64,000 nt of DNA from an uncultured Lachnospiraceae bacterium. GTDB lineage: Bacteria > Bacillota > Clostridia > Lachnospirales > Lachnospiraceae. Made by a program: the position numbers and the translations under genes. The stretch covers positions 1-64,000 of the forward strand of contig CANRZW010000009.1 of NCBI GenBank assembly GCA_947644545.1, in the 5' to 3' direction. The notes under the pieces were generated by a model. It was not told the DNA's origin. It saw only the letters and a program-made list of their open reading frames with translations, and did not search any database. This document shows positions 3,544 through 60,253 of the stretch, in pieces; position 1 is the stretch's first letter; every line of letters begins with the position of its first letter.

Positions 3544-3571
3544 ATTATAACAGCTTTTTTCTATTTGTCAA
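3544..3571 (-). promoter_or_regulatory. Strong sigma-A promoter
   Basis: On the minus strand TTGACA (3566-3571) and TATAAT (3544-3549) are separated by 16 bases, both boxes matching consensus. It points into 3117-3543, where no conventional gene is found. Confidence 0.75.
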
Positions 3572-45244: not shown

Positions 45245-46630
45245 TCAGTCCGTAAATGGGACCAGTCCATATAGGGGCACCGGCTTCTCTTCCCTGCATA
45301 AATACAACAGCCTGTTAACGCCGCCGCCATAAAAGAAGTCGTCATTTGCCAGTTCCACACACTCTCTATTATCCGTTACCGTCATCTCCGGCGCTATCTT
45401 CAATCCGATCGTGACCTTCTCCTGCCCGTATACGAGTTCTTCCGGTATTGTGACCTGTACTTCCTTCGTCACGTTCTGACCGCCGGAAATCTCGTACAGT
45501 TCCGGCATTTCCACTTCATGACATAGATGCTCCGCTCCGGCGTCCACGGTCACAAAGACCCGGTATTTATCCGGAAGTGCGGCATAGCCGGCATTACACA
45601 GGCTGATCCGTATCCGTACTCCCTGACCGGACAGCTCTCCCGCAAAATAAGCTTTTCTCACAACCAGTTCCGAAATAAAAAGGCGGTATCCGAGATGGCT
45701 GCCCAGATAATGTCCTGCATCCACTTCCCGGCCTTCCATCGGCATTCCGTCCCACCGTGCAATGATTTCCTCATTATATTTCAGATTCAGATAGCTTATG
45801 TGCAGCCGGCCAAACTCATAATTTGCATTCTCCGGATCATTCAGCTTTCCCGGCGTCGGCATCTCTCCGCCATTCACCTGGTCCTTCAGATGCGTCTGCA
45901 CCCATTGCAGCTCGTCCCCCCGCTCCATGCCCGGATCATCATAAGTTCCCATGTCACTGTCGTTGGAAAGAAGCGCATCATTATGGATCCCCAGCCTGCC
46001 CGTCAAAACCCCCGCCGCCATGGCTTCCCGCACGAATCTTGGCCGACGCACTGCCACCTTGATATCGGCATCCAGACAGGTATCCCATTGTTTCAGAAGG
46101 TACAGCCTGTTCTCTCTTTGCTCTTCCTCCGTCCCTTCCAGATACCGGCTTGCGTGCCATTCTCCATAGGCTCCAAACATGCCCGCCTGTACGACCAGGA
46201 TCTGCTCCTGATAAGCATTCAGAACATCCGCAATCTGTGCGATATGTCCGGCCATCACTTCGATCCTGTCAGGCTCCGTAACATCCCGGTGGAATCCATA
46301 GGCCGCCCTGAAGACCACTGCCGTCTGTTCCTTCTTCGCCGTCTCCAATGCCGTCTCCAGTTCTTTCAGCTTCTCTTCCGGCAGCTTTTCTTTCCCATAT
46401 TCTTCTATATCATAAGAAAGCAGGATTACCCGGACCACTTCTGCGGCATCCGCTATCTTATCGGGACGGCTGCTTCTCACCTGGATATAGAACCCTCTGT
46501 CCGGATTGTTGAGAACTGCGTCGGACTCCTCGAAGCCCCACTGCCTTTCTTTCCTCATGGCCGTCAACACCATAAAGATCAACGAGAAGCTTCCCAGAAG
46601 CAGCGCTATGACCCATCTTATTTTATTCAA
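45245..46630 (-). CDS. DUF4832 domain protein, last gene of the pel locus
   Basis: A 461-residue protein with one N-terminal membrane segment (about residues 6-26) and an outward-facing region. The NNPDRGFYIQVR start and VVRVILLSYDIEEYG, AGMFGAYGEWHASRY and LGIHNDALLSNDSDMGTY blocks are characteristic of DUF4874/DUF4832 proteins, which look like a TIM-barrel glycosidase-type fold followed by a beta domain. A TTG at 46630 with GGGAG upstream, overlapping the previous stop by 8 bases, is the best start. Role in Pel processing is inferred from position; it may replace the hydrolase part of PelA. Confidence 0.72.
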   Translation of the reverse strand: MNKIRWVIALLLGSFSLIFMVLTAMRKERQWGFEESDAVLNNPDRGFYIQVRSSRPDKIADAAEVVRVILLSYDIEEYGKEKLPEEKLKELETALETAKKEQTAVVFRAAYGFHRDVTEPDRIEVMAGHIAQIADVLNAYQEQILVVQAGMFGAYGEWHASRYLEGTEEEQRENRLYLLKQWDTCLDADIKVAVRRPRFVREAMAAGVLTGRLGIHNDALLSNDSDMGTYDDPGMERGDELQWVQTHLKDQVNGGEMPTPGKLNDPENANYEFGRLHISYLNLKYNEEIIARWDGMPMEGREVDAGHYLGSHLGYRLFISELVVRKAYFAGELSGQGVRIRISLCNAGYAALPDKYRVFVTVDAGAEHLCHEVEMPELYEISGGQNVTKEVQVTIPEELVYGQEKVTIGLKIAPEMTVTDNRECVELANDDFFYGGGVNRLLYLCREEKPVPLYGLVPFTD

Positions 46631-47288
46631 AATAATCTCCCGTAAATTCAACCAGCGTTGCAGTGGTTACTCCCTGAATATCGGATAGCGCCGTGACAAA
46701 AGAAGAGCTCTCTCCCCGAAGCCTTACTTCATAGGTGAGTTCCGTCATCCCCTTCGAGGCCGTCTTATTCTTTAACACCTTTTTCAGCGGCTCGATCTGC
46801 CTTCTGACCGCCTCCGCCGCACTGTCCTGGTACTTCACGACCAGCAGATACTGATGCTTCTTATTTCTGATCTTCACTAACATGATATAGACGGCTGCCA
46901 CAAACAACGTTCCCAGGATAGATATGATATAGAGTCCTGCCCCGCAGGTCACCCCCACCGCCACGGTCCAGAACAGAAATCCCACATCCAGTGGATCTTT
47001 CACTGCCGTGCGGTATCTCACGATAGACAGCGCACCTACCATTCCCAGTGACAACACCACATTGGAGCTGATCACGATCACCATAAAGCAGGTAACCAGG
47101 CTTGTCATCACAAGAAGGATATTGAAATTATTGTTATAGATAACCCCCTTGTAGAATCCGCGATAGACGGCGTATACGATCATGCCGCACAGAAATGCCG
47201 CCAGCATCGACATCGCAAATCCGTTGACGGTCAGATTGCCGGCCTCTTCCAAGAATCCCTTTTTAAAGATATCCGAAAATGTACTCAC
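46623..47288 (-). CDS. DUF4956 membrane protein
   Basis: A 221-residue protein with about four membrane helices in the first half (MSMLAAFLCGMIVYAVYRGFY, ILLVMTSLVTCFMVIV, LSIVRYRTAVKDPLDVGFLFWTVAVGVTCGAG) and a cytoplasmic C-terminal part. RYRTAVKDP is the family's conserved loop. The family usually accompanies VTC-domain and CotH genes. A GTG start at 47288 overlapping the VTC stop as GTGA, with AAAGGAGG 11 bases before, fits better than the longer ATG frame. Function unknown. Confidence 0.78.
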   Translation of the reverse strand: MSTFSDIFKKGFLEEAGNLTVNGFAMSMLAAFLCGMIVYAVYRGFYKGVIYNNNFNILLVMTSLVTCFMVIVISSNVVLSLGMVGALSIVRYRTAVKDPLDVGFLFWTVAVGVTCGAGLYIISILGTLFVAAVYIMLVKIRNKKHQYLLVVKYQDSAAEAVRRQIEPLKKVLKNKTASKGMTELTYEVRLRGESSSFVTALSDIQGVTTATLVEFTGDYFE

Positions 47289-48007
47289 CTGAACAAAATC
47301 CTCCTTTTTTCTTCTCTGCACAGCACGTATTTGGAAACGGCGCATCTGTCCGTCATCGCTGTTTTCAGGATCTGGAATATCAGATCCGGCAGGTATTCGT
47401 CAAACTTCACCTCCAGAACCATGATCCCCGGGTCCAGCACCCGTCTGACCTCATATTGGTCGGAAAAAATATCAGGATCGCCGACGGACACCGAAATATC
47501 CTTATCGAAAGTAATTCGCACATTCCCCTGCTTCATCACATAAGCCTCTCTCAGATATTCTACCGCCACAACAGGCTTCAACAGACGCGTATGATGAAGT
47601 GCATAGAGTTCTCTGCCCAGGGGGTTCTGACAGGACAGGAAGAAATCATAGTCCCCCGCCAGCATGGTATCATATTGCTCTCTGTCGATCAGCATGCTGT
47701 CCTTCGCTATATACTCCCCATATTTCCGTTTGCATTCCAGGCTGATCCTGTCGTCCTTTCTTTCATAGCACCGCAGCCTGTACTTCTTGCGAAACCGGAT
47801 ACCGGCTGTTTTCTCCTCCCATGCCGAATGATAGATATCATCCAGATACAGGCTGCTGACCAGATACCCTTCCTCACTCTTCCTATGCGAATCCGCCTCA
47901 ACTGCCTGGCAGAGTCTCCCCCGCAGCGTGTGATAGACGCTGTCATTGATATAATATTTGATCTCATGGCGCAGCTTGTGTCCCAGATATTCCATCGTTC
48001 CATCCAT
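47285..48007 (-). CDS. VTC-domain protein (polyphosphate-polymerase-like)
   Basis: A 240-residue cytoplasmic protein with the VTC tunnel fold. It has basic and acidic pairs along strands (RHEIKYYIN, SSLYLDDIYHSAWEEK, YRLRCYERK, SLECKRKYG, VVAVEYLREAY, VLEVKFDEYLPD). In yeast Vtc4 this domain makes polyphosphate from ATP. Bacterial versions occur with DUF4956 and CotH genes; activity here is not shown. The start is uncertain: ATG 48007 or 47995, since the longer frame overlaps cotH and lacks homology. Confidence 0.75.
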   Translation of the reverse strand: MDGTMEYLGHKLRHEIKYYINDSVYHTLRGRLCQAVEADSHRKSEEGYLVSSLYLDDIYHSAWEEKTAGIRFRKKYRLRCYERKDDRISLECKRKYGEYIAKDSMLIDREQYDTMLAGDYDFFLSCQNPLGRELYALHHTRLLKPVVAVEYLREAYVMKQGNVRITFDKDISVSVGDPDIFSDQYEVRRVLDPGIMVLEVKFDEYLPDLIFQILKTAMTDRCAVSKYVLCREEKRRILFR

Positions 48008-48053
48008 GCCCTTTCCCGGTATCAACGTCTTCTCAACATGCCTTTCCTGCAAG

Positions 48054-49796
48054 TCAGGGCGCCGCCGGAACCGTAAATTCCAGCAGGCCGAACACAAACT
48101 GTTCGCTGTTCTGCACATGTTCCAGACTAAGCTGTTCCTTGCCAAGATCATCCACCGCCGTCACCTGCAGATAATAGATTCCCGCTTCCAGACCTTTTGG
48201 CATAGTATATTCTGTCTGCTCGATCTGTGTCTGTTCAAAGAGCAGTCTCTGCATCCCTGCATCCTCATAAATACGGAGATTATAGGTGATCGGCCGTCCC
48301 TGATAAGAATAGGACGTATCCCAGCTAAATCTGACGGAACCGTCCGCCAGCCGCTCAGGTTCCGCTACGAACATGGGAGCCGGATAAGCGGCCGCCTTAT
48401 GAAACGCCTCGTAATTACCCAGGATCCCCTCGTAAATACCGTCAATATACGGCATCAGCTCGTCCGGTCTCATATCCAGACATTCAATATCCGGAAACAG
48501 CGGCATCGTCTTCTCCAATACCGGTTTATAAGTGTCAATCAGCTCTGTCACCCGGCTCTTTGTTACGCTGTCCGCGAGCAGTTCTCTCATCTTACGATCC
48601 AGCTTGTCGATGCTTCCTTCCAGACGCAGATACCTGCGGTGCAGGATACTGACATTGAGCGTCTGGATGCCACGAAGGGAATCCGGCTGGCTGAAAGAAG
48701 ACCTGTGTTCCCCAAACCGGAGCGCCCCGTCAAAGTCCCAGGGAATGAAATACCATGTGAGAGAATTATCCGGGTTGTACAGGATGTAATTGTGATTGGT
48801 GATATCCTCATTTCCCATTAAAATATTAAAGGCGAGCCATGTCAGATAGTTGTCCTCATCAAAATAAGTGTTAAAGATCTCCTCAAAGTCCGCGGTCGTA
48901 TTGTTGACAGCCGTAAGCATCTGCAGCAGCTTCTCATGATCCGATCCTTCCCTGATCGACAGCACGGTCTCAAACGCTTCTTCTGAATAAGCAGGGTCAT
49001 CCACATTCAAAAGCACGTCGCTCATGGCAAAGCTGAAATCGCTCGCCTTATACATGACTGCATTGCTTCCCAGGCCCCTTGTCTCCAGATAAGTCTTATT
49101 GGGTTGTTCGGTCTCCGTATACAGTCCATAATAGACAAATTCCTGTTCTTCTTCCGGTAAAGAGGTGTCTCTGATCCACAGCCGCATAAAGTAAGTCCGG
49201 TAACCCGCGATATCGTCGATCTGTGCCAGCAGATCCGTCTGCAGTTTCGTCGCGATCTTGGAATCATCCCCCACATGCTTATTGATGTTCAGATTCTTCT
49301 GCCCGAAGAAAGTGCCGGCCTCCTCTTCGAGCTTCACCTTATAGCTCTTATAGGTGACGCCTCTGGAAGAATTTCCTCTGACGCGTATCGTCGCATTCTT
49401 GTGATCCAGATCCAGCAGCGGATCCGGTTTCCCGCCCTCCTCCAAAATCTGGATGTTGCAGTTGAGTACCGGATTATAGCTGTGGTCTCTGGCCGTATGA
49501 AGCGCAAATGCAGAGAAGTCCAGCATCTGGCCGCTCTCATCCTTGGTCGGAAATACACTGATATAGACATCATAGATATTGCTGTCCTGCTCATAGATCC
49601 CCTTATCTTCGTGCAGCCCTGCCCCGTTCAGATCGCTGTCCGCCATCTCCCAGTTCTCCAGCGAACTGCCTGCAGAACTCTCATCCGGCTCTTCGATCGG
49701 GATCAGGGAATTGGCATACAGAACCCCGAACGCAACCGCCGCCGTCACGGTCGCCAATACCAAAGCCATTTTCTCGTTTATCTTCCATCGTTTCAT
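48054..49796 (-). CDS. CotH-family kinase-like protein
   Basis: A 580-residue exported, membrane-anchored protein: N-terminal segment (KMALVLATVTAAVAFGVLYA), then an extracellular CotH domain (about 75-460) with IRVRGNSSRG, FFGQKNLNINKH, GNEDITNHNYILY and WYFIPWDFDGAL, the Asp-x-Asp-type active-site region of CotH atypical kinases. A fibronectin-like C-terminal domain follows (about 475-575). CotH phosphorylates spore-coat proteins in Bacillus; in exopolysaccharide loci its target is unknown. It lies 75 bases after pelG. Confidence 0.82.
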   Translation of the reverse strand: MKRWKINEKMALVLATVTAAVAFGVLYANSLIPIEEPDESSAGSSLENWEMADSDLNGAGLHEDKGIYEQDSNIYDVYISVFPTKDESGQMLDFSAFALHTARDHSYNPVLNCNIQILEEGGKPDPLLDLDHKNATIRVRGNSSRGVTYKSYKVKLEEEAGTFFGQKNLNINKHVGDDSKIATKLQTDLLAQIDDIAGYRTYFMRLWIRDTSLPEEEQEFVYYGLYTETEQPNKTYLETRGLGSNAVMYKASDFSFAMSDVLLNVDDPAYSEEAFETVLSIREGSDHEKLLQMLTAVNNTTADFEEIFNTYFDEDNYLTWLAFNILMGNEDITNHNYILYNPDNSLTWYFIPWDFDGALRFGEHRSSFSQPDSLRGIQTLNVSILHRRYLRLEGSIDKLDRKMRELLADSVTKSRVTELIDTYKPVLEKTMPLFPDIECLDMRPDELMPYIDGIYEGILGNYEAFHKAAAYPAPMFVAEPERLADGSVRFSWDTSYSYQGRPITYNLRIYEDAGMQRLLFEQTQIEQTEYTMPKGLEAGIYYLQVTAVDDLGKEQLSLEHVQNSEQFVFGLLEFTVPAAP

Positions 49797-49871
49797 AACA
49801 ATACCTAACCCTATTCTCATTTCTGCTTCCGCTTCCTGCCAAATCCCCATACGAGAGTGATCGCAAGACCA

Positions 49872-51257
49872 TTATTCTCCACGGCACATCAGATAGACAT
49901 TTAAATGCGCCAGGCGGTATCTGAGCCTCCAGAAGGACAAGATCCATCCGCAAAGTCCACCGATCAGAAGCGGCAGCGCATAAAACGGCCTGCCGAATAT
50001 ACATGCCGCCACCGCCAGCGCCGCCGTGACCAGAAGAAAGATACATGGTCCGATACAGGCGCCCATGTGGTCCTCGAAATAATACAGAAAGATAACCGTA
50101 AAATACATGCAGAATACCGTATACAATCCCATGCTTAGAATCATAAACATATTCAGCACCTGCGCACTGATATTTAAATAAGGAAAGAAAACATTTGCCA
50201 TACAGATCAGAACCACCGTGATAATCAACTGTACCTCATACACAAAGAACAACTGATAACGGATCGTATTATTCATATTCTCCCGTTCCTTCTCGATCCT
50301 GGCGTAGGACCCCTGATTCAACGCAGACAGGTATGCCACATACTTTTCGTAGAAGGCGGTCTCCGCCTTCACCACAAAAATAACGAGTGCAGACATGTTG
50401 ACTGCGATCGCCAGAAACATTGCCAGATCGTAAACAGGCGTCGTACTAAAGATACTGACCTGCTCTCTCATATCGGAAAAAGCCCAGTAGATCATCGTAC
50501 TCACATAAAATCCCAGCATATAACAAAAGCCGCTGATGGTCAGTTTCGGATATTTGGTAAACCAGGTAAGCCAGACAAAGAACCGCTTTCCCGGCTTTCC
50601 AAACGCTTTCACACACCAGAAGACCAGCAGGAAAACTACCAGAAAGTAGCCGCACAGCAACGCCAGATATGCCGACAAAACAACCGGCCAGCCAACAATG
50701 CCCGTACAGATTAAATAGACAACCGCCGCCAGAAGCAGCCCCACAAAAAAGCTGAAAGTAACCTCCTTATACTGTTTCAACGCCGACACATAAGTCATGA
50801 TATTGTAGGTATTTGTTATCATCACCCCCAGGCAATAATAAATAACCAGAAAATACAACGGTATGTCACTATAGAAATACATGCCGGCACATAACAGAAA
50901 CATCAGGACGCCGGACAGAACCGTGCCCAATGTCAGTGTTCCGAATACCGAGGCGCAAATCTCCTTCTCCGATTCCCGAAACACACAGTCGGAAATATAG
51001 CGCGACAGCGTCGTACTGAATAGAGAAGAGATCAATATGGAGATCAGAAAAATATAGGTAAAGGAGGAGACAAAGAACCGGCTTTCCAACTCTGAGATAT
51101 CTGCCCTGTCCATCAGAAATTTCAATGACAGAAACAGGACCGCTGCCATCACAGACGGACCGATCGCGGTCATGGTCGCGTAAATGCTTCCCCAGATACC
51201 GGATACCAGTGTCTTCCTTCCATAGATTTTTCGAAGCTCAAATCCAATTCCTGCCAT
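49872..51257 (-). CDS. pelG: PelG, Pel polysaccharide transporter
   Basis: A 461-residue membrane protein with about twelve helices, of the MATE/flippase-like PelG family. It opens with the family signature MAGIGFELRKIYGR and contains AIGPSVMAAVL, SDCVFRESEKEIC and YIWAF-like segments before the soluble loop LNQGSYARIEKERENM. Together with PelF, PelD and PelE it exports the growing aminosugar polymer across the cytoplasmic membrane. It begins 6 bases after the pelF stop with AGGAG. Confidence 0.92.
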   Translation of the reverse strand: MAGIGFELRKIYGRKTLVSGIWGSIYATMTAIGPSVMAAVLFLSLKFLMDRADISELESRFFVSSFTYIFLISILISSLFSTTLSRYISDCVFRESEKEICASVFGTLTLGTVLSGVLMFLLCAGMYFYSDIPLYFLVIYYCLGVMITNTYNIMTYVSALKQYKEVTFSFFVGLLLAAVVYLICTGIVGWPVVLSAYLALLCGYFLVVFLLVFWCVKAFGKPGKRFFVWLTWFTKYPKLTISGFCYMLGFYVSTMIYWAFSDMREQVSIFSTTPVYDLAMFLAIAVNMSALVIFVVKAETAFYEKYVAYLSALNQGSYARIEKERENMNNTIRYQLFFVYEVQLIITVVLICMANVFFPYLNISAQVLNMFMILSMGLYTVFCMYFTVIFLYYFEDHMGACIGPCIFLLVTAALAVAACIFGRPFYALPLLIGGLCGWILSFWRLRYRLAHLNVYLMCRGE

Positions 51258-51263
51258 CTCCTG

Positions 51264-52688
51264 CTATGCCTCCTTCTGCTCCCCCAGATCCGTGTAAAGC
51301 TTACGAAATTCCTCCAGCATCACGCTTTTGCTGTAATACATCTCCACCCGCTTTCTGCCGATTCTGCCCATGCGCCTGCACATCTTCGGATCCCTGATAC
51401 AACGGATGACCGCGTCTGCCATCGCTTCGCTGTTCATGACCGGTACAACGATACCGGCGCTGCCAAGCGAATCTCCCGTCTCCCCTTCCAACAATGCGCG
51501 GCAGCTGCCCACATTCGTAGCGACAAAGGGGATCTTAGCCGCCATTCCCTCTAACATCGCCAGGGGCTGTCCTTCACTGATGCTGGACAATAGCAGCAGA
51601 TCAATATCCGGAAGATGTTCCTTCACGTTCACCTGCCCCAGGAAATGAATGTCCGAAGTGCCAAGCTCCTCTATAAGCTCCAGACATTCTTCATAATACT
51701 CCGGATTCTCTCCGCAGTTTCCCATAATCTTTAACTTTGCTCCGGGTATCGTCTGTTTGACAAGATCGAACGCCAGCAGCATTGTCTTCACATCCTTGAT
51801 CGGCACGACTCGCAAGACCGCTCCGATCGTAAATTCTTCCACCGATCCATGCTTCCTTGTTCGACAGATATCATATTCCTTCACATCCACACCGTTCGGA
51901 ATGATCACGGTCTTCTGTGCCGGACACCCCAGCTCTACCTGCAAGGATCTGCTCACCCCAAACAGACTGGTGACCCGGCCGGCCTGCCGATATGCTATGT
52001 AAGAGAGCTTCTTGAAAAAGTTGATCCATATTTCCTTGAAATCTCCTTCCACCCAGTGGGAGCGGATGATATCCTCCTCCCGCTCTCTTGTATAGATCCC
52101 ATGCTCCGACAACAGAAGCGGCTTCTTCTCCACATAGGAAGCACAGCTTCCCATAATACCGGCGTACCCGGTGGATACGGCATGATAGAGATCTGCCTTC
52201 GGAATCTCCTCCGATAAGATATACATAAACGGGAAATAAATGCCTCTGAAATTCCACAGGAAATGATTAAACACCTTCTTGGAGCCCTGTCTTTGGTACT
52301 CTTCCAGACAGATCTCAAAAAAGGATTCGCTCAACAGAATATCCCCCAGATACTTTCGATATTTCCTGATCAGCTCCAAAATACCGACCCAGTCAATCTC
52401 TTCCACCGATGCAATCACCAGGTTTTTCAGGACTGCCCTCTCTTCCCTGGACAATACCACTTTATGATGAGTCTTGCGGAATTCTTCGTCTCCCAGATAG
52501 ATCGTGCGGATCTCTTTCACATTTTCTGGAATATCATAAGAGTACTCGTACATCTCCTCCCTGGTAGTCGCAAGCGCCCAGATCACAAATTCCACATCTT
52601 TATATGCACTGCATAAAGTTTGGATCCAGCTTGAGACACCGCCCGGTACATACGGATAGCAGCCTTCACAGATCAGGCACACGCGCAT
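51264..52688 (-). CDS. pelF: PelF, Pel glycosyltransferase (GT4)
   Basis: A cytoplasmic GT-B glycosyltransferase of 474 residues, normal for PelF. The start RVCLICEGCYPYVPGGVSSWIQTL is the family signature; later blocks are GVDVKEYD, AVLRVVPIKDVKTML, GNCGENPEYYEE and the donor-site ISEGQPLAMLEGMAAKIPF. It uses UDP-activated N-acetylhexosamine to build Pel. It overlaps nothing but follows the DUF2194 gene by 3 bases with AGGAGG, so the two are tightly coupled. Confidence 0.95.
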   Translation of the reverse strand: MRVCLICEGCYPYVPGGVSSWIQTLCSAYKDVEFVIWALATTREEMYEYSYDIPENVKEIRTIYLGDEEFRKTHHKVVLSREERAVLKNLVIASVEEIDWVGILELIRKYRKYLGDILLSESFFEICLEEYQRQGSKKVFNHFLWNFRGIYFPFMYILSEEIPKADLYHAVSTGYAGIMGSCASYVEKKPLLLSEHGIYTREREEDIIRSHWVEGDFKEIWINFFKKLSYIAYRQAGRVTSLFGVSRSLQVELGCPAQKTVIIPNGVDVKEYDICRTRKHGSVEEFTIGAVLRVVPIKDVKTMLLAFDLVKQTIPGAKLKIMGNCGENPEYYEECLELIEELGTSDIHFLGQVNVKEHLPDIDLLLLSSISEGQPLAMLEGMAAKIPFVATNVGSCRALLEGETGDSLGSAGIVVPVMNSEAMADAVIRCIRDPKMCRRMGRIGRKRVEMYYSKSVMLEEFRKLYTDLGEQKEA

Positions 52689-52691
52689 AGC

Positions 52692-54395
52692 TTATTCCTC
52701 CTCCATTATGATGACCGCATGACTTTGCTGCACATGCAGAATATAGTAACCGTTGCCCGCATTCTCATAGCTCAGTCCCTCCGCCTCCCTGATCCTGCCG
52801 TTGGTCCTGAAGAAAAATGCCTGCCCTTTTACCGCATTGCTGCAGTCAAGTTCCACCCTGTCTTTGTCTTTCTTCCATGTATAATCCAGATTCACATAAC
52901 TCCTGATATCATTCTGTGTCTGGGACAGCACTTTTCCCTCCAGCCACGGAACTTTCTTCAAGATCTCTTTCTCAAACAACCCGATCTGTCGTTTGTCCAC
53001 ATCCCAGGATGCCGTTTCCTCATCCTCCGCGATCAGCGTATTGATATCAAACACATGCGATACCATGCCATATGCACCCAACAGGGAACAGATTCCAAAA
53101 AGGTTTCCTTCCTCCATCGAATTTCCCACGGTCGCCGCCGGGAACTCCAGATACTCCTTGTCACAGGAAAACCCCGTTCCCCTGCCGCTGCCAAGCATCT
53201 TTCTCACAACCTGAATCTTCACATCCGGAATGTTCAGCATATTTTCCGAAAATGTCTCCGTCTGTAGTGCCAGTCCCCGGATCTCATAGTTCGTAAAGAC
53301 AGAACGGAATTCATCGATAAAGTTTTGATTAAAATAAATCTCCTTATCGTTCTCACAATTCGCCGCATAGATCAGTTCTCCGTTATACTGCAGCGCCGAT
53401 TTGCCGATGGTAGTAAACAGGCTGTCGTTGATCTCGGGGAAACTTTGGTCCGACGAAGCCGCCGCCAGTATACTGGAAGTATACGGCGTATCTGTCCGCA
53501 GCGACATTCCCTGCAGATCCGGCCATACCACATCCCTGACAAAACTTTCCGTGGAGCAGCCGTACATCTGCATACACAGCTTATCGTTAATAAATGTTAT
53601 CATCGGGAAATTGTCCAGGAAGACCGTCTTGCTCCCCAGCACCGGATAGATCATATCTTCCAGCATCACTCCGGCTGCCCCTGTCAAAAGTCCTGCGCAG
53701 TGAAGATCCGCAAGATAGGTCCCGTTGATCAGGCAGATCTTCCCCGCTCCGTACTCACATGTATACAGTACCGGGACGTCACTGTCCCCATCCCGAATAT
53801 AGACTTTGGCATCTTCCCCTACCGCCAGCCATGTGGACAGATCATATCCTGCATAGAACATCTCCTCCGCCTGTACCGGCAGCAATGCCTCCTCAAAACA
53901 CAGTCTGTTATAATTCTCCCGCACAGACTTCTCCCGGATCCCAAGGAGCGGCCACAGATAAGAATCCTCATTCCCTTCCGGAAGGCCTGCCGCCAGGATC
54001 ACTTTGCCGCCCCCGGACACAAATTGCCCCAATTTCCTTAAATCCGTATAACTGCCCACCGAATCGTCACAGAAGACTACCAGCGCATCCCGCTCTAACT
54101 TCTCCGGATCCAGCTGTTTTACTTCCCTGACCGTATAATGCAGATCTGTAAAGATCTGTCTGCTGTTATGATATATTTTCTCATAAATATCTTTCCCGCC
54201 GTCGCCCACGATCCACACCTGGGGCTTTTCCGCATCCTTTAACAGTCTCGTCTCGACAAATTCGCTTTGCTCCTCCTGTATATTCCTGATCTGAACATGC
54301 CTCGCACGTTCCTCGTTCATGTTATAGAGCATAAAGACACAACTGACGACGGTTACGATCAACACCACATACAGCATTCTCTTCCATGACAGCAT
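52692..54395 (-). CDS. DUF2194 protein (PelA-like position in the pel locus)
   Basis: A 567-residue protein with an N-terminal membrane anchor (about residues 6-24) and a large outward domain. A Rossmann-like part (VWIVGDGGKDIYEK, ALVVFCDDSVGSY, VSGGGKVILAAGLP) precedes a polysaccharide-deacetylase-like half and a short beta domain at the end. DUF2194 proteins recur in Gram-positive pel clusters where P. aeruginosa has PelA. Deacetylation of the polymer is therefore suspected. Clear NodB metal-binding motifs are not obvious by eye, so activity is open. Confidence 0.72.
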   Translation of the reverse strand: MLSWKRMLYVVLIVTVVSCVFMLYNMNEERARHVQIRNIQEEQSEFVETRLLKDAEKPQVWIVGDGGKDIYEKIYHNSRQIFTDLHYTVREVKQLDPEKLERDALVVFCDDSVGSYTDLRKLGQFVSGGGKVILAAGLPEGNEDSYLWPLLGIREKSVRENYNRLCFEEALLPVQAEEMFYAGYDLSTWLAVGEDAKVYIRDGDSDVPVLYTCEYGAGKICLINGTYLADLHCAGLLTGAAGVMLEDMIYPVLGSKTVFLDNFPMITFINDKLCMQMYGCSTESFVRDVVWPDLQGMSLRTDTPYTSSILAAASSDQSFPEINDSLFTTIGKSALQYNGELIYAANCENDKEIYFNQNFIDEFRSVFTNYEIRGLALQTETFSENMLNIPDVKIQVVRKMLGSGRGTGFSCDKEYLEFPAATVGNSMEEGNLFGICSLLGAYGMVSHVFDINTLIAEDEETASWDVDKRQIGLFEKEILKKVPWLEGKVLSQTQNDIRSYVNLDYTWKKDKDRVELDCSNAVKGQAFFFRTNGRIREAEGLSYENAGNGYYILHVQQSHAVIIMEEE

Positions 54396-54399
54396 TCTC

Positions 54400-55290
54400 T
54401 TATCCTCTCTGCATCCAATACCGCACTCTCTCCAGCCCCTGCGCTGACAGCCTGATCTGCCTGTCTTTTTGCAGTTCGGCTATACACGCATGAAATTTCT
54501 TCTTCTCTCTCCTCCGGTAAAACAATTCCGTCATCTTCATATAACTGTTTTCATTCTTTAGTCTGTCACGCCTTTGGTCCCAGAGCTGTTCGGCTGCCTG
54601 GAACCGCTCCAGTTCTATCAGATAAGCCATCCACTTCTCATAATCCAGGTCCAAAAGCACGCTCTCGTCAATCAAAACCTGTGCTTCCATCAGGCTGCAA
54701 TATTTCTTTCTGTACATTTCCTGTTCTCTGCCGGACAGAACCTGGCTCTCTATCAGTTTCCGCAGGGCTTCACATACTTCCCTGAATTTTTCGCTGTCCT
54801 CCTGATCCTGCTCATATGCCCTGCTGCACTCCAGCCAACGCTGATGCAGGACTCGGTAGACTTCCATTTTGGTAGCCGCCACATAATGTACGGACTCCGA
54901 ATCCTCATCCTTCTCTGCCGCCAGAAGCGCCTTGTAATTCTCACTGATATCTTTCTTCAACTGCCGCAAAAGAAGCGCCCGCTTCTCCCGGTTCTCATTG
55001 ATCGCCATGGCATCCTCCACCGGAACCACATTCAACTCTTCCTCCATGTTCGGATGCTCTTCCATCTTTTTAATGCTGTTACGGCCAACAAGAGACTCCC
55101 TGTCATATTTTCCCTGCCCAAACAGCCTGCCTAAAATACGCGGAAGAAAATAAAGGACAAAACCGAGGACCGGAAGAAACAGGAAGAAGACCGTAACGCC
55201 TGCCCCTTCTTTCCGCACCGCCTTCACAACGGCATAACACACTGCAGCGATGAGATTCCCGATCAACAGCGCCATCAAAAGTCTTTCCAT
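54400..55290 (-). CDS. pelE: PelE-like membrane protein
   Basis: A 296-residue protein with two N-terminal membrane segments (about 3-22 and 30-50) followed by a long helical, TPR-like cytoplasmic region rich in Glu, Lys and Arg. The layout, two helices plus repeats, and its place right after pelD match PelE, which helps PelD and PelF/G assemble at the membrane. Sequence similarity is weak, so the name rests mainly on layout and order. It overlaps the pelD end by 16 bases. Confidence 0.72.
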   Translation of the reverse strand: MERLLMALLIGNLIAAVCYAVVKAVRKEGAGVTVFFLFLPVLGFVLYFLPRILGRLFGQGKYDRESLVGRNSIKKMEEHPNMEEELNVVPVEDAMAINENREKRALLLRQLKKDISENYKALLAAEKDEDSESVHYVAATKMEVYRVLHQRWLECSRAYEQDQEDSEKFREVCEALRKLIESQVLSGREQEMYRKKYCSLMEAQVLIDESVLLDLDYEKWMAYLIELERFQAAEQLWDQRRDRLKNENSYMKMTELFYRRREKKKFHACIAELQKDRQIRLSAQGLERVRYWMQRG

Positions 55291-57509
55291 TCCATTTCCT
55301 CCGAATCCTCAAATGCAGTGGTGATCTTTGCATCCAAACCACCTTCCGCAAGCCGCTTTTGCAGATACTCCACATCATCTGTACCGGTATTATTTAACAG
55401 CACATAGAGATTGCCGGACCCATCAGTACCGAGACAGTCTGTCGCGCGAAGCCCCTCGGCGGCCTTTCTGCATGCTTCTTCGAAACCGTCCCGGCCTGTG
55501 ATCTGCACCACGCAATACTCCGCCAGTTTCTTTTCGGCTCTCTCCCCGGCCAGGAGTATATTCCTGTGAAACGGTTCCGGCTTCATGACTTCCGTTCCCT
55601 GCAGATAGATCTCTTCCTTCATCAGTTCTTCATGATCCAGCGCACGTCCCACGGCTTCACGCAGAAGAAGCGAGAGTGTCTTCAATAGGTTTACATAATA
55701 TAGTGTCTGGCTTGTATAAGGCAATGTCTTAATGAGGATCGCAGCAACACAGTTCCCCTGGTACAGGATCGGCAGAACGATCGCCGGCTCCCCTTTCCAC
55801 ACATCGCCCTGGTACAGCTCTCCGGCGATGACGGAAGCCTGAATATCCGGATACGCAGTCAGATTCCAGGATTTTCCTTCCTGCGCAGATTCTTCATTCA
55901 ATGCATTGATCAGCCTGAGGTACGGACTGTCTTCCTTTACACGGTAAACAGCGACCGTATCCGTGTGTACCATCTCGGACACAATGGACACGATCTCCAT
56001 AAAGATTCTCTCCGGCTGCTGAACCATTAGACGGCTGACAACGCGGTACAACTTCGGAAATCCGTACTTGGAATCCAGAATACGCTCTTCATATTCGTTC
56101 TTGATCATGACATTCTCATCATTGATCGCTTTCAATTCCTCATATTCTTCTTCACGCATCACCAGCTCCCGACGCGTATCCCGCAGTTCTTCCCGCAGCA
56201 TGTCAGTCACATAGCTGATAACCAGGCCGAGAAATACAAATTCCATGATCTTAAGCACACTGCCGGCATAAGAGTAGAAATTCGTCATATTGAAAATATT
56301 CAGATCCTGCATAAATAAGTACGCCGCACTCGCCAAAATAACGGCCAGCGTACTCTGTCGTATACCGAGAAAAACGGAGATCAATATCACATAGATCGTC
56401 AGCCACTCAATCCGGGAGAACAGGCTGTGCGGCGCACTTATATAATTGACCGCAAAAAAAGCCGAGAATACCAGGAGATTCTCCAATGTCCTCCGTATAC
56501 CTGCCGGTATCCTGCCTTTCCTTACCCTTTTGCTCTTTGCCGCCGCTTTCTCATAAGAGATTCCGCCATCGGCAAACTGATCCTCCAACTTATGGAAGTC
56601 TGTCCACTCAGTCTCTTTTTTCAGACGGCCGTTATCCGCAAGTATCCATTGGTCCGTCTCTTCCCATTGTATCTTCTCTTCCGGGACCCCGGCCCTTTTT
56701 CCGATCAGCTCGAATAAGCGCTTCCTGGAAATCTCAAAACTGCCGGCAGCGTTATATACCCCCTGCTTTTCGGAATCCATTACCCGCTTGACGGCGTCCA
56801 CCAGATCCGCTGTATGCAGCGGCTGCAGAATATCATTGACGAGAACCGTTCCTTTCTTTCCTGCCATGACATCTGCAAATCCTCTGCTCAGAAAGTCCGT
56901 CGCTCCCTCCCTGGCCTGATCGGCATATAACGAGGATGCTCTGATCACTGCCCCATAGAGGCCATACTGCCTGCCGTAAAGCTGTAACATCTGCTCTTCT
57001 CTCACAAAGCGCATTCCTCTTTCACCCACAGGCATAACCGTCTGCTGTTCATCTGCCTTCTTAGCCGACTTTCCATAGACCTCCGTAGAGGACAACAGCA
57101 AAAAGCGCACATCCTTCCTATCTGACAGGATCTGCAGGGTACGAGTCAGTAAGGTAACATCCTCCTCCTCTTTTTCCTGATAAACACAGTCCATAAAATA
57201 TGTCCCTGCAAATACCACCCAGTCCGGCCGGATCGACTGCAATGTTTTACGGTAATTGTCGCCGCTCAGCGATATCTTATAAAATCTATATTTCCATCTT
57301 TCCGAGATCGTCCTTGGAAAGTCTCTGACCGATAGAAAATAGACGTCATTTCCCTCTTTATTCATCCGTTCGATAAATGTTTCTGCCAATTGATCCTTTG
57401 TACCGATATATGCTATTTTCAAGAATCGTATCCTCTCGCTTTTCCGATATTTTGCAGCTTTCGATACGAAATCCCCACGCCTATGCTCTGCCTTCTCCCA
57501 TTGTGCCAT
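55275..57509 (-). CDS. pelD: PelD-type c-di-GMP receptor fused to an SDR domain
   Basis: A 744-residue protein, first gene of the pel operon. Residues about 28-300 form an NAD-dependent epimerase/dehydratase (SDR) fold whose glycine-rich motif (YIGTKDQL) and YxxxK site look degenerate. Residues about 343-445 have four membrane helices, about 490-620 a GAF domain (FMEIVSIVSEMVHTDTVAVY), and about 640-744 a degenerate GGDEF domain. In the last, RATD near residue 688 sits where the c-di-GMP I-site RxxD occurs, while GGDEF is replaced by DGSGN. PelD binds c-di-GMP to switch on synthesis. The start has GAGGAAC. The candidate invertible promoter lies directly upstream. Confidence 0.85.
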   Translation of the reverse strand: MAQWEKAEHRRGDFVSKAAKYRKSERIRFLKIAYIGTKDQLAETFIERMNKEGNDVYFLSVRDFPRTISERWKYRFYKISLSGDNYRKTLQSIRPDWVVFAGTYFMDCVYQEKEEEDVTLLTRTLQILSDRKDVRFLLLSSTEVYGKSAKKADEQQTVMPVGERGMRFVREEQMLQLYGRQYGLYGAVIRASSLYADQAREGATDFLSRGFADVMAGKKGTVLVNDILQPLHTADLVDAVKRVMDSEKQGVYNAAGSFEISRKRLFELIGKRAGVPEEKIQWEETDQWILADNGRLKKETEWTDFHKLEDQFADGGISYEKAAAKSKRVRKGRIPAGIRRTLENLLVFSAFFAVNYISAPHSLFSRIEWLTIYVILISVFLGIRQSTLAVILASAAYLFMQDLNIFNMTNFYSYAGSVLKIMEFVFLGLVISYVTDMLREELRDTRRELVMREEEYEELKAINDENVMIKNEYEERILDSKYGFPKLYRVVSRLMVQQPERIFMEIVSIVSEMVHTDTVAVYRVKEDSPYLRLINALNEESAQEGKSWNLTAYPDIQASVIAGELYQGDVWKGEPAIVLPILYQGNCVAAILIKTLPYTSQTLYYVNLLKTLSLLLREAVGRALDHEELMKEEIYLQGTEVMKPEPFHRNILLAGERAEKKLAEYCVVQITGRDGFEEACRKAAEGLRATDCLGTDGSGNLYVLLNNTGTDDVEYLQKRLAEGGLDAKITTAFEDSEEMEWKDF

Positions 57510-57527
57510 GTTCCTCAGGTACCTTGA

Positions 57528-57542
57528 AGTACACTTTGACGA
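57528..57542 (+). repeat. Left inverted repeat (IRL) of the switch
   Basis: AGTACACTTTGACGA, 18 bases before the pelD start codon. The core AAGT-AC-ACTT spans 57527-57536. Confidence 0.65.
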
Positions 57543-57577
57543 CTCTCACCGGTTCGAACATGGAGGACAGAATTTCA

Positions 57578-57606
57578 TTGACATTCTATGAAAAAATGAA
57601 TATAAT
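57578..57606 (+). promoter_or_regulatory. Consensus sigma-A promoter inside the invertible segment
   Basis: TTGACA (57578-57583), 17 bases, TATAAT (57601-57606): both boxes are perfect. As assembled it reads rightward, antisense to the recombinase gene and away from pelD. No comparable promoter points toward pelD in this interval. A weak CTACA/TGTAG hairpin and T-rich tracts lie downstream and may stop the useless transcript. Confidence 0.85.
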
Positions 57607-57666
57607 AAATACAAATTTGGCATAAGTCTACAGATTATTTTGTAGGTTTTCTTATATGTAATCAGT

Positions 57667-57681
57667 TCGCTAAAGTGTACT
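57667..57681 (-). repeat. Right inverted repeat (IRR) of the switch
   Basis: The reverse complement reads AGTACACTTTAGCGA. It lies 22 bases past the recombinase stop codon. Confidence 0.65.
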
Positions 57682-57702
57682 CTGGCGGATTTTTTTATTT
57701 TT

Positions 57703-58344
<642 letters not shown>

Positions 58345-58420
58345 TTAATTTACTGCATGTTAACCACAAAAAAATACACAATATATTTATTCTCTGCGGA
58401 CTCAAATAAGTGCGGGAACT

Positions 58421-58477
58421 GCTTGTTGCCCCAACAAGCGAAGGCCGTTGTAAGATCTATATGTCTTACAACGGCCT
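58421..58477. other. Two adjacent strong hairpins
   Basis: GCTTGTTG/CAACAAGC (58421-58439) and a 14-bp perfect stem AGGCCGTTGTAAGA with its complement (58442-58455, 58464-58477). They lie between the ABC permease stop and the recombinase gene. Neither is followed by a T tract, so they are not clear terminators, though they may insulate the recombinase from the ABC operon. Confidence 0.5.
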
Positions 58478-58548
58478 CCGCGGCGCTTTATCTTATCGTT
58501 TACAATAAATGGAAATTTGCATCCATGTATAAGCTCTCGCCCATTCCT

Positions 58549-59340
58549 TTACTTCCGCACCCGCCTGCCTCTATACTGCGCATACATCGCCAGGATCCCT
58601 GTCAACGCTGCCAGGAAGATGCAGGACTGAATATAAGGCATGAAGTTATAGGATCCGCCCTGCCAGAACCCTGCGAAATCATTGCTGATATAAGTCATGG
58701 GCAGCATACGCGCTATCTTCTGCCAGATTGCCGGCAGCTGATCCGTGGAGATTCCCATCATTCCCGTCAGCATCATCAACAGAAAATAGATGGTCATGGA
58801 AACACCGAAGGTCACGCTGAACCGACGGAAAATATTGGCCAGACAATGCACGATCACCAGAAAAATCACTCCGATCAGATACAGGGACACAAGCAGGATC
58901 AACAGGGAAGACAGGGCCGGTCTCGGTATATCCAGCAAAAGCGTCTGCACTACGGCATACAGGAGCATAGCTCCCGTCAAAAAGAGCAGATGAACGATGA
59001 TCTTCGCCGTTATCAGACTTTTCTCTCCAAACCCGAACAGATGCATCCGCTGCGGTATCTCCCGTTCCACCTCCTGGGAATACAGCGATCCGTATCCAAG
59101 AAACATAATGGACATGGGCATGATCAATGCCATGCAGATCACTACGGAGATCGTGACCTCCGGTCTGGACGCATCCGGCGCCTGTTTGCCGATCATCGTC
59201 GAGAACAGCAGGCTCATAATATTCGGAAATACGATACCGAAAAAGTGCGTCATAAAGTTACCGTTGATATTCCGCAGTTCATAGCCTATCATTCTCAAAC
59301 TGCATCCCTTCTTTCTATTATTTATGGCTTTGTTATTCAT
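58549..59340 (-). CDS. ABC-2-type transporter permease
   Basis: A 263-residue membrane protein with about six helices, starting MNNKAINNRKKG. It contains MIGYELRNINGNFMTHFFGIVFPN, the YSQEVEREIPQRMHLFGF cytoplasmic loop and a C-terminal helix. It is the transport partner of the ATPase encoded immediately upstream. The cargo, perhaps a drug or antimicrobial peptide, is inferred from the linked two-component system. Start 59340 follows AAGGAAGGA. Confidence 0.85.
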   Translation of the reverse strand: MNNKAINNRKKGCSLRMIGYELRNINGNFMTHFFGIVFPNIMSLLFSTMIGKQAPDASRPEVTISVVICMALIMPMSIMFLGYGSLYSQEVEREIPQRMHLFGFGEKSLITAKIIVHLLFLTGAMLLYAVVQTLLLDIPRPALSSLLILLVSLYLIGVIFLVIVHCLANIFRRFSVTFGVSMTIYFLLMMLTGMMGISTDQLPAIWQKIARMLPMTYISNDFAGFWQGGSYNFMPYIQSCIFLAALTGILAMYAQYRGRRVRK

Positions 59341-59374
59341 GGCTTTTCCTTCCTTTCTCACAGTTCCTTCTATA

Positions 59375-60253
59375 TCAGCCCTGCACGGCCTCCCCGTAAA
59401 AACAGGATTTCGCGTTGATCGACATGATCTCAATATCCGAACTGCTCCGCTTGAAATCTACATTATGCTCCACAAACAGCGACAACATCCTTCTCTCCTC
59501 CTCCTTATTCCGGCAGGACAGGGCAAGCAGATGGTCCGGAGACCGCAACATCCGAAACTCGGCCGCCAGACTGTGATTCTTCGGCGTGTTCTCCAGAATA
59601 TAGACCGCATCGCCACAATACTTGAGAAAAAGCTCCTTCACGTTTCCATAAGCGATCACTCTGCCCTCGTCCAGCAACAGAATCTTATCCGCCAGCTGTT
59701 CCAGTTCTTCGTAATAATGAGAGACGATGATCAGGCTGTCCTCTTTATCCCTGTACCATTCCACCAGCTTCTCCGTCAGTTTCTGTCTGGACTCGAAATC
59801 CAGACCCGATGTGACCTCGTCGTAAAAAGTCAGCTCCGCCTTCTGCATCATCACCATGATAATCGTAAACTTCTGTTTCTGACCTCCGGAAAGCGCATGA
59901 AACCGTTTCGACAAACACCCCTCGAACTCAAAAAACCCGATCAATTCCTGAAGTTCCCTGTTCTCCTTGATATTCGTATCCAGGATCATCTCCATAATCC
60001 GCCTTACCGGCATGGTGGAAACATAAGAATTGGACTGCATATGCACCGCCATCTGCTCCGGCCTGATCTGTGTAATGATACTCCCCTGGTAATCCACCAG
60101 CCCCAGAAGCGCCTTGACAAGCGTAGTCTTGCCCGCTCCATTGGAACCGATCACGCCGATGCGCTCCCCCCTCTCAAAGGAAAGCGGCTCCTCGATCCGC
60201 AGCGCCGTCTGGCTGCCATATTTTACCTGCAATTGTTTGATCGTCAGTAACAT
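59375..60253 (-). CDS. ABC transporter ATP-binding protein
   Basis: A 292-residue ATPase with Walker A GSNGAGKTTL, signature LSGGQKQKF, Walker B LTFYDEVTSGLD and the switch His in IVSHYYEEL. It has a C-terminal extension of about 80 residues, as in exporters of the drug/peptide-resistance type. Second-last gene of the RR-HK-ATPase-permease operon, with 34 bases to the permease. Confidence 0.92.
   Translation of the reverse strand: MLLTIKQLQVKYGSQTALRIEEPLSFERGERIGVIGSNGAGKTTLVKALLGLVDYQGSIITQIRPEQMAVHMQSNSYVSTMPVRRIMEMILDTNIKENRELQELIGFFEFEGCLSKRFHALSGGQKQKFTIIMVMMQKAELTFYDEVTSGLDFESRQKLTEKLVEWYRDKEDSLIIVSHYYEELEQLADKILLLDEGRVIAYGNVKELFLKYCGDAVYILENTPKNHSLAAEFRMLRSPDHLLALSCRNKEEERRMLSLFVEHNVDFKRSSSDIEIMSINAKSCFYGEAVQG

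Follow-up and report, generated by a model that had tools for sequence, protein, structure and literature searches.

A probable invertible promoter at a clostridial Pel locus, and a serine recombinase that may also serve a second Pel locus and a GGDEF gene

Comparison of a 64-kb stretch of DNA (the window) with related genomes is best read as pointing to a serine invertase that acts in trans to phase-vary two Pel operons and, probably, the gene for a c-di-GMP synthase. Very probably, positions 57533–57676 of the window carry a promoter that is inverted by the product of the neighbouring serine recombinase gene, an enzyme that probably also acts in trans on cassettes at a second pel locus (pel-2) and at a GGDEF gene. 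An initial annotation of the window had proposed that inversion of this segment switches the pel operon ON and that the assembly shows the OFF state; it was right on this main point, and underestimated the reach of the system. We infer the flipping of the first locus (pel-1), the role of the neighbouring recombinase and the effect on transcription from the anatomy of the segment, from the conservation of sites, promoter and recombinase at both orthologous loci, and from the inversion of like cassettes at pel-2 and at two loci with a paralogous recombinase (L036 and L039).

The pel-1 locus and its switch segment

The positions of the features are listed in Table 1; the pel operon lies to the left of the segment and the recombinase gene to its right, both on the minus strand. 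That a pel locus adjoins the segment, as first annotated, is confirmed by PelF, PelG, the accessory domains, the epimerase-like domain of PelD and the gene order. The pelD-E-A-F-G order, PelF, PelG and clostridial accessory genes are those of a Gram-positive pel locus as defined in the available part of PMC7112168, with pelE assigned by position only; the pelE-like protein has no Pfam or NCBIfam match. The start of pelD is probably TTG 57422 and not ATG 57509, because both orthologues conserve a GAGAGGA motif and the start region at TTG 57422, G009 lacks the sequence that contains ATG 57509, and the PelD proteins of two further relatives start at the equivalent position (MKIVYIG in G741 and MKVLFVG in G771). 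The left repeat therefore lies 105 bp from pelD, and the 18 bases given initially need correction. PelD proteins end in a GAF/degenerate GGDEF region, which a Pfam search of the window PelD did not report. Candidates for RxxD, the c-di-GMP inhibitory-site motif of PelD, are RATD at residue 659 of the window PelD and RQTD at residue 680 of the pel-2 protein (PelD-2), each protein having further RxxD matches and these two being chosen for their distance from the degenerate GGDEF region.

Table 1. Features of the pel-1 region and of related cassettes (window coordinates unless a contig is named; G000 is the window's own genome, and G009, G095, G100, G023 and G077 are congeneric genomes)
Feature	Position	Strand	Remarks
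DUF4832/DUF4874 accessory gene	45245..46651	-	PF16116, PF16173
DUF4956 accessory gene	46623..47345	-	PF16316
VTC-domain accessory gene	47285..48151	-	PF09359
CotH-like accessory gene	48054..49850	-	PF08757
pelG exporter	49872..51257	-	PF16933 9e-95
pelF glycosyltransferase	51264..52688	-	NF038011 2.2e-112
pelA-like gene	52692..54395	-	DUF2194
pelE-like gene	54400..55290	-	by position; 82–85% homologues in G009, G095
pelD, epimerase-like N-terminus	55275..57422	-	probable start TTG 57422; RxxD at residue 659; identified by epimerase-like domain and gene order
pelD-side recombination site (putative)	57527..57542	+	core AAGT-AC-ACTT (57527–57536); kept in G009, G095
Invertible segment (presumed)	57533..57676		between crossover points; pattern span 154 bp
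Promoter TTGACA-17-TATAAT	57578..57606	+	12/12; points away from pel; kept in both orthologues
Hairpin and seven U, overlapping the recombinase-side site	57664..57696	+	fold -9.5 kcal/mol; -15.2 in G009, G095
Recombinase-side recombination site (putative)	57667..57682	+	core AAGT-GT-ACTC (57673–57682); kept in G009, G095
Serine recombinase gene (200 aa; proposed invertase)	57703..58305	-	PF00239
Leader/promoter region of recombinase gene	58306..58345	-	TTGGTATATTAAAT; conserved in three-species alignment
pel-2 cassette	G000:C33 28969–29123 (L292 2970–3124, L201)		promoter toward pelD = ON
GGDEF cassette	G000:C4 152880–153035 (L289 6881–7036)		assembled ON; GGDEF ORF ~300 bp beyond site
G100 recombinase-linked cassette	G100:C12 65086–65240 (L288)		followed by a 134-aa gene without Pfam match and by a fucosidase-like gene

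The segment is bounded by inverted repeats at 57528–57542 and 57667–57681 that are identical at 13 of 15 positions and separated by a 124-nt spacer, as annotated, and each repeat has the described arrangement of symmetric arms around an asymmetric dinucleotide (AAGT-AC-ACTT or its complement), the recombinase-side core having a single mismatched arm base. Crossover is presumed to occur at AC 57531–57532 on the pelD side and at GT 57677–57678 on the recombinase side. The enclosed promoter, one of two perfect promoters with 16–18 spacing in the 64 kb (the other at 3571 on the minus strand), faces away from pelD and toward the recombinase gene, again as annotated, and pel-1 in the present assembly is thus in the OFF orientation. 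Inverted repeats flanking a promoter beside a gene that it could drive, the anatomy of an inverton, are therefore present at pel-1. The initial annotation saw no other good promoter toward pelD; a weak 9/12 promoter-like site within the segment does face pelD, and is by eye absent from the orthologues. Sequence alone would not single out the pel-1 repeat: among inverted-repeat pairs at 80–260 bp spacing, 58 in the window score at least 9, and with its score of 10 pel-1 is one of eight, four others scoring 11–12. The case therefore rests on comparison, and it is conservation in two other species that places the repeat above chance.

The hairpin that overlaps the recombinase-side site is a possible terminator of the OFF-orientation transcript, and as folded could end it ahead of an antisense run into the recombinase gene; a simple terminator scan does not include it among its calls. 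When the halves joined by inversion are folded, the G009 hairpin is retained (-12.1) and that of the window is not clearly retained (-9.2, z -0.98). An Rfam search (E up to 1) of window positions 55000–59500 gave no riboswitch or other match. A perfect 13-bp inverted repeat (GGCCGTTGTAAGA...TCTTACAACGGCC, window 58443–58476) lies between ABC genes and the recombinase gene and was also uncalled by the terminator scan.

When 77 genomes of the genus were searched with PelG, two orthologues (89%) were found, G009:C28 and G095:C73, as well as 28–29% homologues in four genomes, the window's own included. Both orthologous loci have the recombinase-segment-pel order of the window with recombinases 87–88% identical to its own, full-length matches to PelD through PelG at 80–89%, and conserved segment length. 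The initial annotation had held that its proposal would fail if pel-carrying relatives lacked the repeats; sites, promoter and recombinase are kept in 2/2 congeneric orthologues. The pel-1 cores match those of G009 and G095 at 105/138 and 103/138 positions in the same orientation, compared with 63/137 and 60/138 when flipped; the window, G009 and G095 are therefore all OFF, with no flipped pel-1 segment among these three species. The upstream neighbours in G095 are those of the window (DegV, DUF1294, response regulator, kinase and ABC genes), and G009 has distant homologues (25–29%) of two upstream neighbours only. More widely, five of 28 PelD upstream regions (window excluded) have a repeat score of at least 12, namely three AT-rich regions (L203, L206, L207) and those of the pel-1 orthologues in G009 and G095, whose core is GTAC. 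A relative of the recombinase at 1e-5 is present in one of 20 pel regions in one set (G095) and in none of 12 in another, and no repeat was found upstream of pelD in G741 (49% PelD; its contig extends ~580 bp upstream) or G771 (35%), the nearest pel relatives beyond the genus.

Related cassettes at pel-2, a GGDEF gene and elsewhere in the genus

The upstream regions of the genome's own pel-2 (L201) and of the G100 pel-2 (L204) score 11 and 9, and the GTAC-core sites present in both led to the recognition of a candidate regulon. Pattern searches and inspection of the DNA 3' of the G100 recombinase gene brought the number of promoter-bearing cassettes to eight, spread over four genomes: pel-1 in G000, G009 and G095, pel-2 in G000, G095 and G100, the GGDEF gene in G000, and a recombinase-linked segment in G100. 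All eight span 154–156 bp, a size class that pel-1 (154 bp) shares with the seven others, with 41–43 bp from site to -35 and 67–69 bp from -10 to the other site; each of these regions has one pattern match and a perfect promoter, the regions having been chosen for the promoter.

One of these cassettes stands before the second, divergent pel locus of the genome (PelG 28%). Its promoter points toward pelD in G000 and G095 and away from it in G100 (L291), and the G000 and G095 cores match that of G100 when flipped (z 12.9 and 15.3) and not unflipped (z 2.1 and 3.9), with G000 and G095 matching each other unflipped (z 17.1). The pel-2 cassette is inverted between species. The G095 contig ends before the pelD of pel-2, and its ON orientation is therefore read from a chemoreceptor gene that is conserved on the opposite flank. 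The comparison of relatives for both orientations, as proposed in the initial annotation, thus has a mixed outcome, with pel-1 OFF in 3/3 and opposite orientations between species at pel-2 and at L036/L039. In G023, which has no recombinase orthologue, a lone site and a perfect promoter facing pelD-2 are found at G023:C6 207372–207390 (L203), possibly a locked-ON relic with the form expected of a locked derivative.

The ORF beyond the GGDEF cassette matches GGDEF at 1.4e-31 with an intact RWGGDEF motif, likely encodes a c-di-GMP synthase, is followed by a BTAD-domain gene, and has no orthologue in five congeners at 1e-30. Because this GGDEF motif is intact and an RxxD (not the sole one) lies in the expected region of both PelD proteins, it is plausible that one switch is common to a c-di-GMP synthase and to c-di-GMP-responsive Pel machines. 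Rfam searches (E up to 1) around the GGDEF and pel-2 cassettes gave one match each, far under the gathering score and implausible. In G100, as in the window, DegV and DUF1294 lie beside the recombinase, but that genome has no PelG of the pel-1 type, so the recombinase and its switch can carry different cargo.

A recombinase with at least 87% identity is present in four of the 77 congeneric genomes, the next best match being 66%. The exact pair pattern AGTACAST-N(118-148)-ASTGTACT, which covers one site arrangement, matches in 5/77 genomes, as does its reversed control (also 5/77), so that the pattern on its own lacks specificity, and the four genomes with a recombinase orthologue are the same four in which the pattern encloses a perfect promoter; promoter-less matches in G077 and at G009:C4 were rejected as cassettes. 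The odds of this agreement are 7e-7 if the genomes are independent, but the four may be close relatives, so the co-occurrence is weak evidence, and kinship would explain part of it. A single-site search found 26 places compared with 8 for the reversed control, and the pair pattern misses site pairs of other congeners that lie next to paralogous recombinases and have diverged or are arranged differently. The only close recombinase copy in G000 is that of the window, that of G100 is on a different contig from its pel-2 cassette, and no relative was found beside the pel-2 cassettes of G000 and G100 or beside the GGDEF cassette. The idea that the pel locus has its own dedicated invertase is weakened because the pel-2 and GGDEF cassettes exist; the enzyme probably serves at least these two further promoters in the genome.

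The recombinase and its relatives in Clostridia

The recombinase has the Resolvase N-terminal catalytic domain, nucleophilic serine and conserved arginines of a small serine recombinase, matching PF00239 (1.9e-30, 106 bits) and the DNA invertase family phrog_125 (1.2e-53). Residues R10, S12, Q21, R47, D69, R70 and R73, which we take to be the equivalents of gamma-delta resolvase positions, are present and invariant across a 25-row alignment (24 of 40 retrieved recombinases and that of the window). Values of dN/dS are 0.041–0.066 for three pairs, with dS of 1.0–1.5 near saturation. The best PDB sequence match is Sin, and by model the enzyme falls outside the Mpi family of master invertases, scoring 49.1 bits against NF009949, under the curated cut-off of 272. 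The Hin/Gin-sized recombinase of the initial annotation does adjoin the right repeat, at a measured gap of 21 rather than 22 bases. We read the conserved leader as containing a putative extended -10; a promoter scan called no promoter-like site in it.

Relatives matching at 1e-3, many of them distant, occur in 45 of the 61 genomes searched, the window's own included, and a conserved-peptide scan of GTDB contigs confirmed at least 573 relatives, of which 80 were kept. Among the matches listed, repeats scoring at least 13 lie within 300 bp 3' of the recombinase at 47 of 113 loci, a count that excludes viral loci (12 relatives on viral contigs), stretches under 250 bases and L101, which has no stop, and in whose denominator at least two contigs are counted twice (L035/L089 and L042/L137). 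Control windows reach this score at 1/108 upstream and 2/106 at 1.5 kb downstream, and 0.4 are expected from Markov sequences. After removal of identical stretches there are 48 family segments, whose site pairs have the consensus aaaaAGT-GT-ACTtttt, with a centre of AT in five and non-palindromic centres in the others; the two centres are equal in 47 of the 48 pairs, partly as a result of pair selection. A same-strand ORF lies within 400 bp behind the distal site at 41/48 loci, and these ORFs were picked as such, so that their co-direction follows from selection; 38 of the 41 start less than 100 bp from the distal site. Their Pfam matches include glycosyltransferase family 2 (6), the TnpB-type TNB domain (7), SLH (2), MBOAT (2), cohesin and a dynamin-like GTPase.

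The congeneric loci L036 and L039 differ in orientation, with the segments 150/152 identical when flipped and 77/137 unflipped, between conserved flanks (250/290 on the distal side and 491/596 over the recombinase); this segment, beside a paralogous recombinase, is inverted between congeners. Scored with an approximate home-made matrix, promoters in the 48 segments point toward the recombinase (OFF) in 27, away in 7 and are unassigned in 14, and assembled genomes may be biased to OFF. At five loci (L094, L097, L102, L104 and L134) TnpB/OrfB-like genes are first behind the distal site, and the L104 segment is flipped relative to those of L097, L102 and L134; these would be an unusual case of RNA-guided nuclease relatives behind an invertible segment, or else IS607-like elements. 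L077, the best match of the named-genome scan (74%), has by eye one site followed by a T run, with no pel, and was set aside.

Alternative readings, mechanism and relation to known switches

The recombinase and pel genes could instead form one co-directional transcript from the recombinase promoter, with the orientation of the segment only modulating or opposing basal transcription. They share a strand, the leader upstream of the recombinase is conserved in three species, and the terminator scan made no call in the minus (pel) direction between recombinase and pelD, its only call lying inside the recombinase gene; read-through is therefore a real rival, and could express pel in either orientation. 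We consider it unlikely nonetheless, since all eight cassettes (chosen as promoter-bearing) share the position of their perfect promoter, and no relative of the recombinase was found beside the cassettes of pel-2 in G000 and G100 or of the GGDEF gene. A relic, in which sites and promoter formerly inverted and pel-1 is now locked OFF, would suit the imperfect repeat and the single orientation in 3/3 species, and G023 pel-2, with one site and a perfect promoter toward pelD, shows a possible locked form. This is improbable for a locus at which sites, promoter and recombinase all persist across three species, the recombinase under purifying selection and PelD to PelG full-length in both orthologues.

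The same low probability attaches to flipping by another recombinase, the neighbouring gene being incidental: three distant serine recombinase matches (26–32%) are present elsewhere in the genome, but homologues in Clostridia have site pairs with the AGT-GT/AC-ACT core directly 3' of the gene, and promoter-bearing pairs track the presence of the orthologue in the genus. Serine recombinases paired with TnpB are known from IS607-type elements, and the resolvase domain, the best PDB match to Sin and the TnpB-like gene behind the segment at five paralogous loci might suggest that the segment belongs to a transposon or a resolution site and is no switch; the pel neighbours, the inverted orientation of the sites, the constant promoter geometry and the close spacing of family ORFs (38/41) behind the distal site make this scarcely credible.

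Small serine recombinases act as dimers that bind two sites, pair them, cut at the central dinucleotide and rejoin the segment reversed. Under inversion by the neighbouring enzyme, dimers of the 200-aa protein would bind both pel-1 sites and bring them together, cutting at the central AC/GT dinucleotide, with the segment rejoined in reverse. In the OFF state the promoter would fire toward the 3' end of the recombinase gene, the transcript probably stopping at the recombinase-side hairpin and U tract, and in the ON state transcription would cross the pelD-side site and continue into pelDEAFG and the accessory genes. Action of the enzyme in trans, on the pel-2 (G000:C33, ON) and GGDEF (G000:C4, ON) cassettes, is also probable. 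It is somewhat probable that one invertase independently flips the promoters of two Pel operons and a c-di-GMP synthase, giving a combinatorial heritable switch with up to eight states per clone, in which the recombinase-side site of pel-1 doubles as a terminator.

Hin/Gin DNA invertases are serine recombinases of ~200 aa that invert promoters at sites with symmetric arms around an asymmetric dinucleotide. The proposed system resembles them in each of these features, and differs in that the recombinase gene lies outside the segment. Mpi of Bacteroides fragilis is described in the available part of PMC5903667 as a master serine invertase of capsule promoters, likewise one serine recombinase for several scattered invertible promoters before polysaccharide loci; here, by contrast, the targets would be Pel operons and a GGDEF gene, the segments are ~155 bp with AGTAC-centred sites, and the enzyme is no Mpi equivalog by NF009949. 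The RecV switches of Clostridioides difficile include invertible elements upstream of the phosphodiesterase genes pdcB and pdcC (available part of PMC9286219), RecV itself being a tyrosine recombinase according to the same portion of PMC5903667. They offer a clostridial parallel in which c-di-GMP turnover and surface traits are phase-variable through several sites, but their products degrade c-di-GMP, whereas the gene here looks like a synthase whose switch would be common with Pel operons. Polysaccharide promoters under a master serine invertase in Bacteroides and phase-variable c-di-GMP enzymes in C. difficile are thus already known from these sources.

Among gut invertons of the PhaseFinder type, the available part of PMC11892184 associates those of exopolysaccharide genes with Bacteroides, and tyrosine recombinases with the largest group in Clostridia; the invertible promoters near exopolysaccharide genes are similar to ours, but no Pel locus is among those described in that part. 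Gram-positive pel clusters have the order pelDEADAFG, an epimerase-like PelD N-terminus and CotH, polyphosphate-polymerase, DUF4956 and DUF4832 accessory genes, and the clostridial and streptococcal clusters share core, PelD N-terminus and accessory genes with the present locus; the terms 'recombinase' and 'phase vari' have no occurrences in the main text of that paper (PMC7112168, available part). A literature search, with most subscription papers outside it, found no report of invertible Pel control or of an invertase common to Pel and a GGDEF gene.

Pel is usually discussed as being under regulators and c-di-GMP. In the present case inversion of a DNA segment would decide whether matrix is made, and the inverting enzyme would control a likely c-di-GMP synthase as well; if true, DNA orientation governs both the Pel machinery and the second messenger expected to activate it, and the locus would offer a small test system for the coupling of second-messenger and matrix bet-hedging. 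The site consensus can also be used to seek similar switches in Clostridia, where a strong 3' repeat accompanies 47 of 113 recombinase loci among the matches listed.
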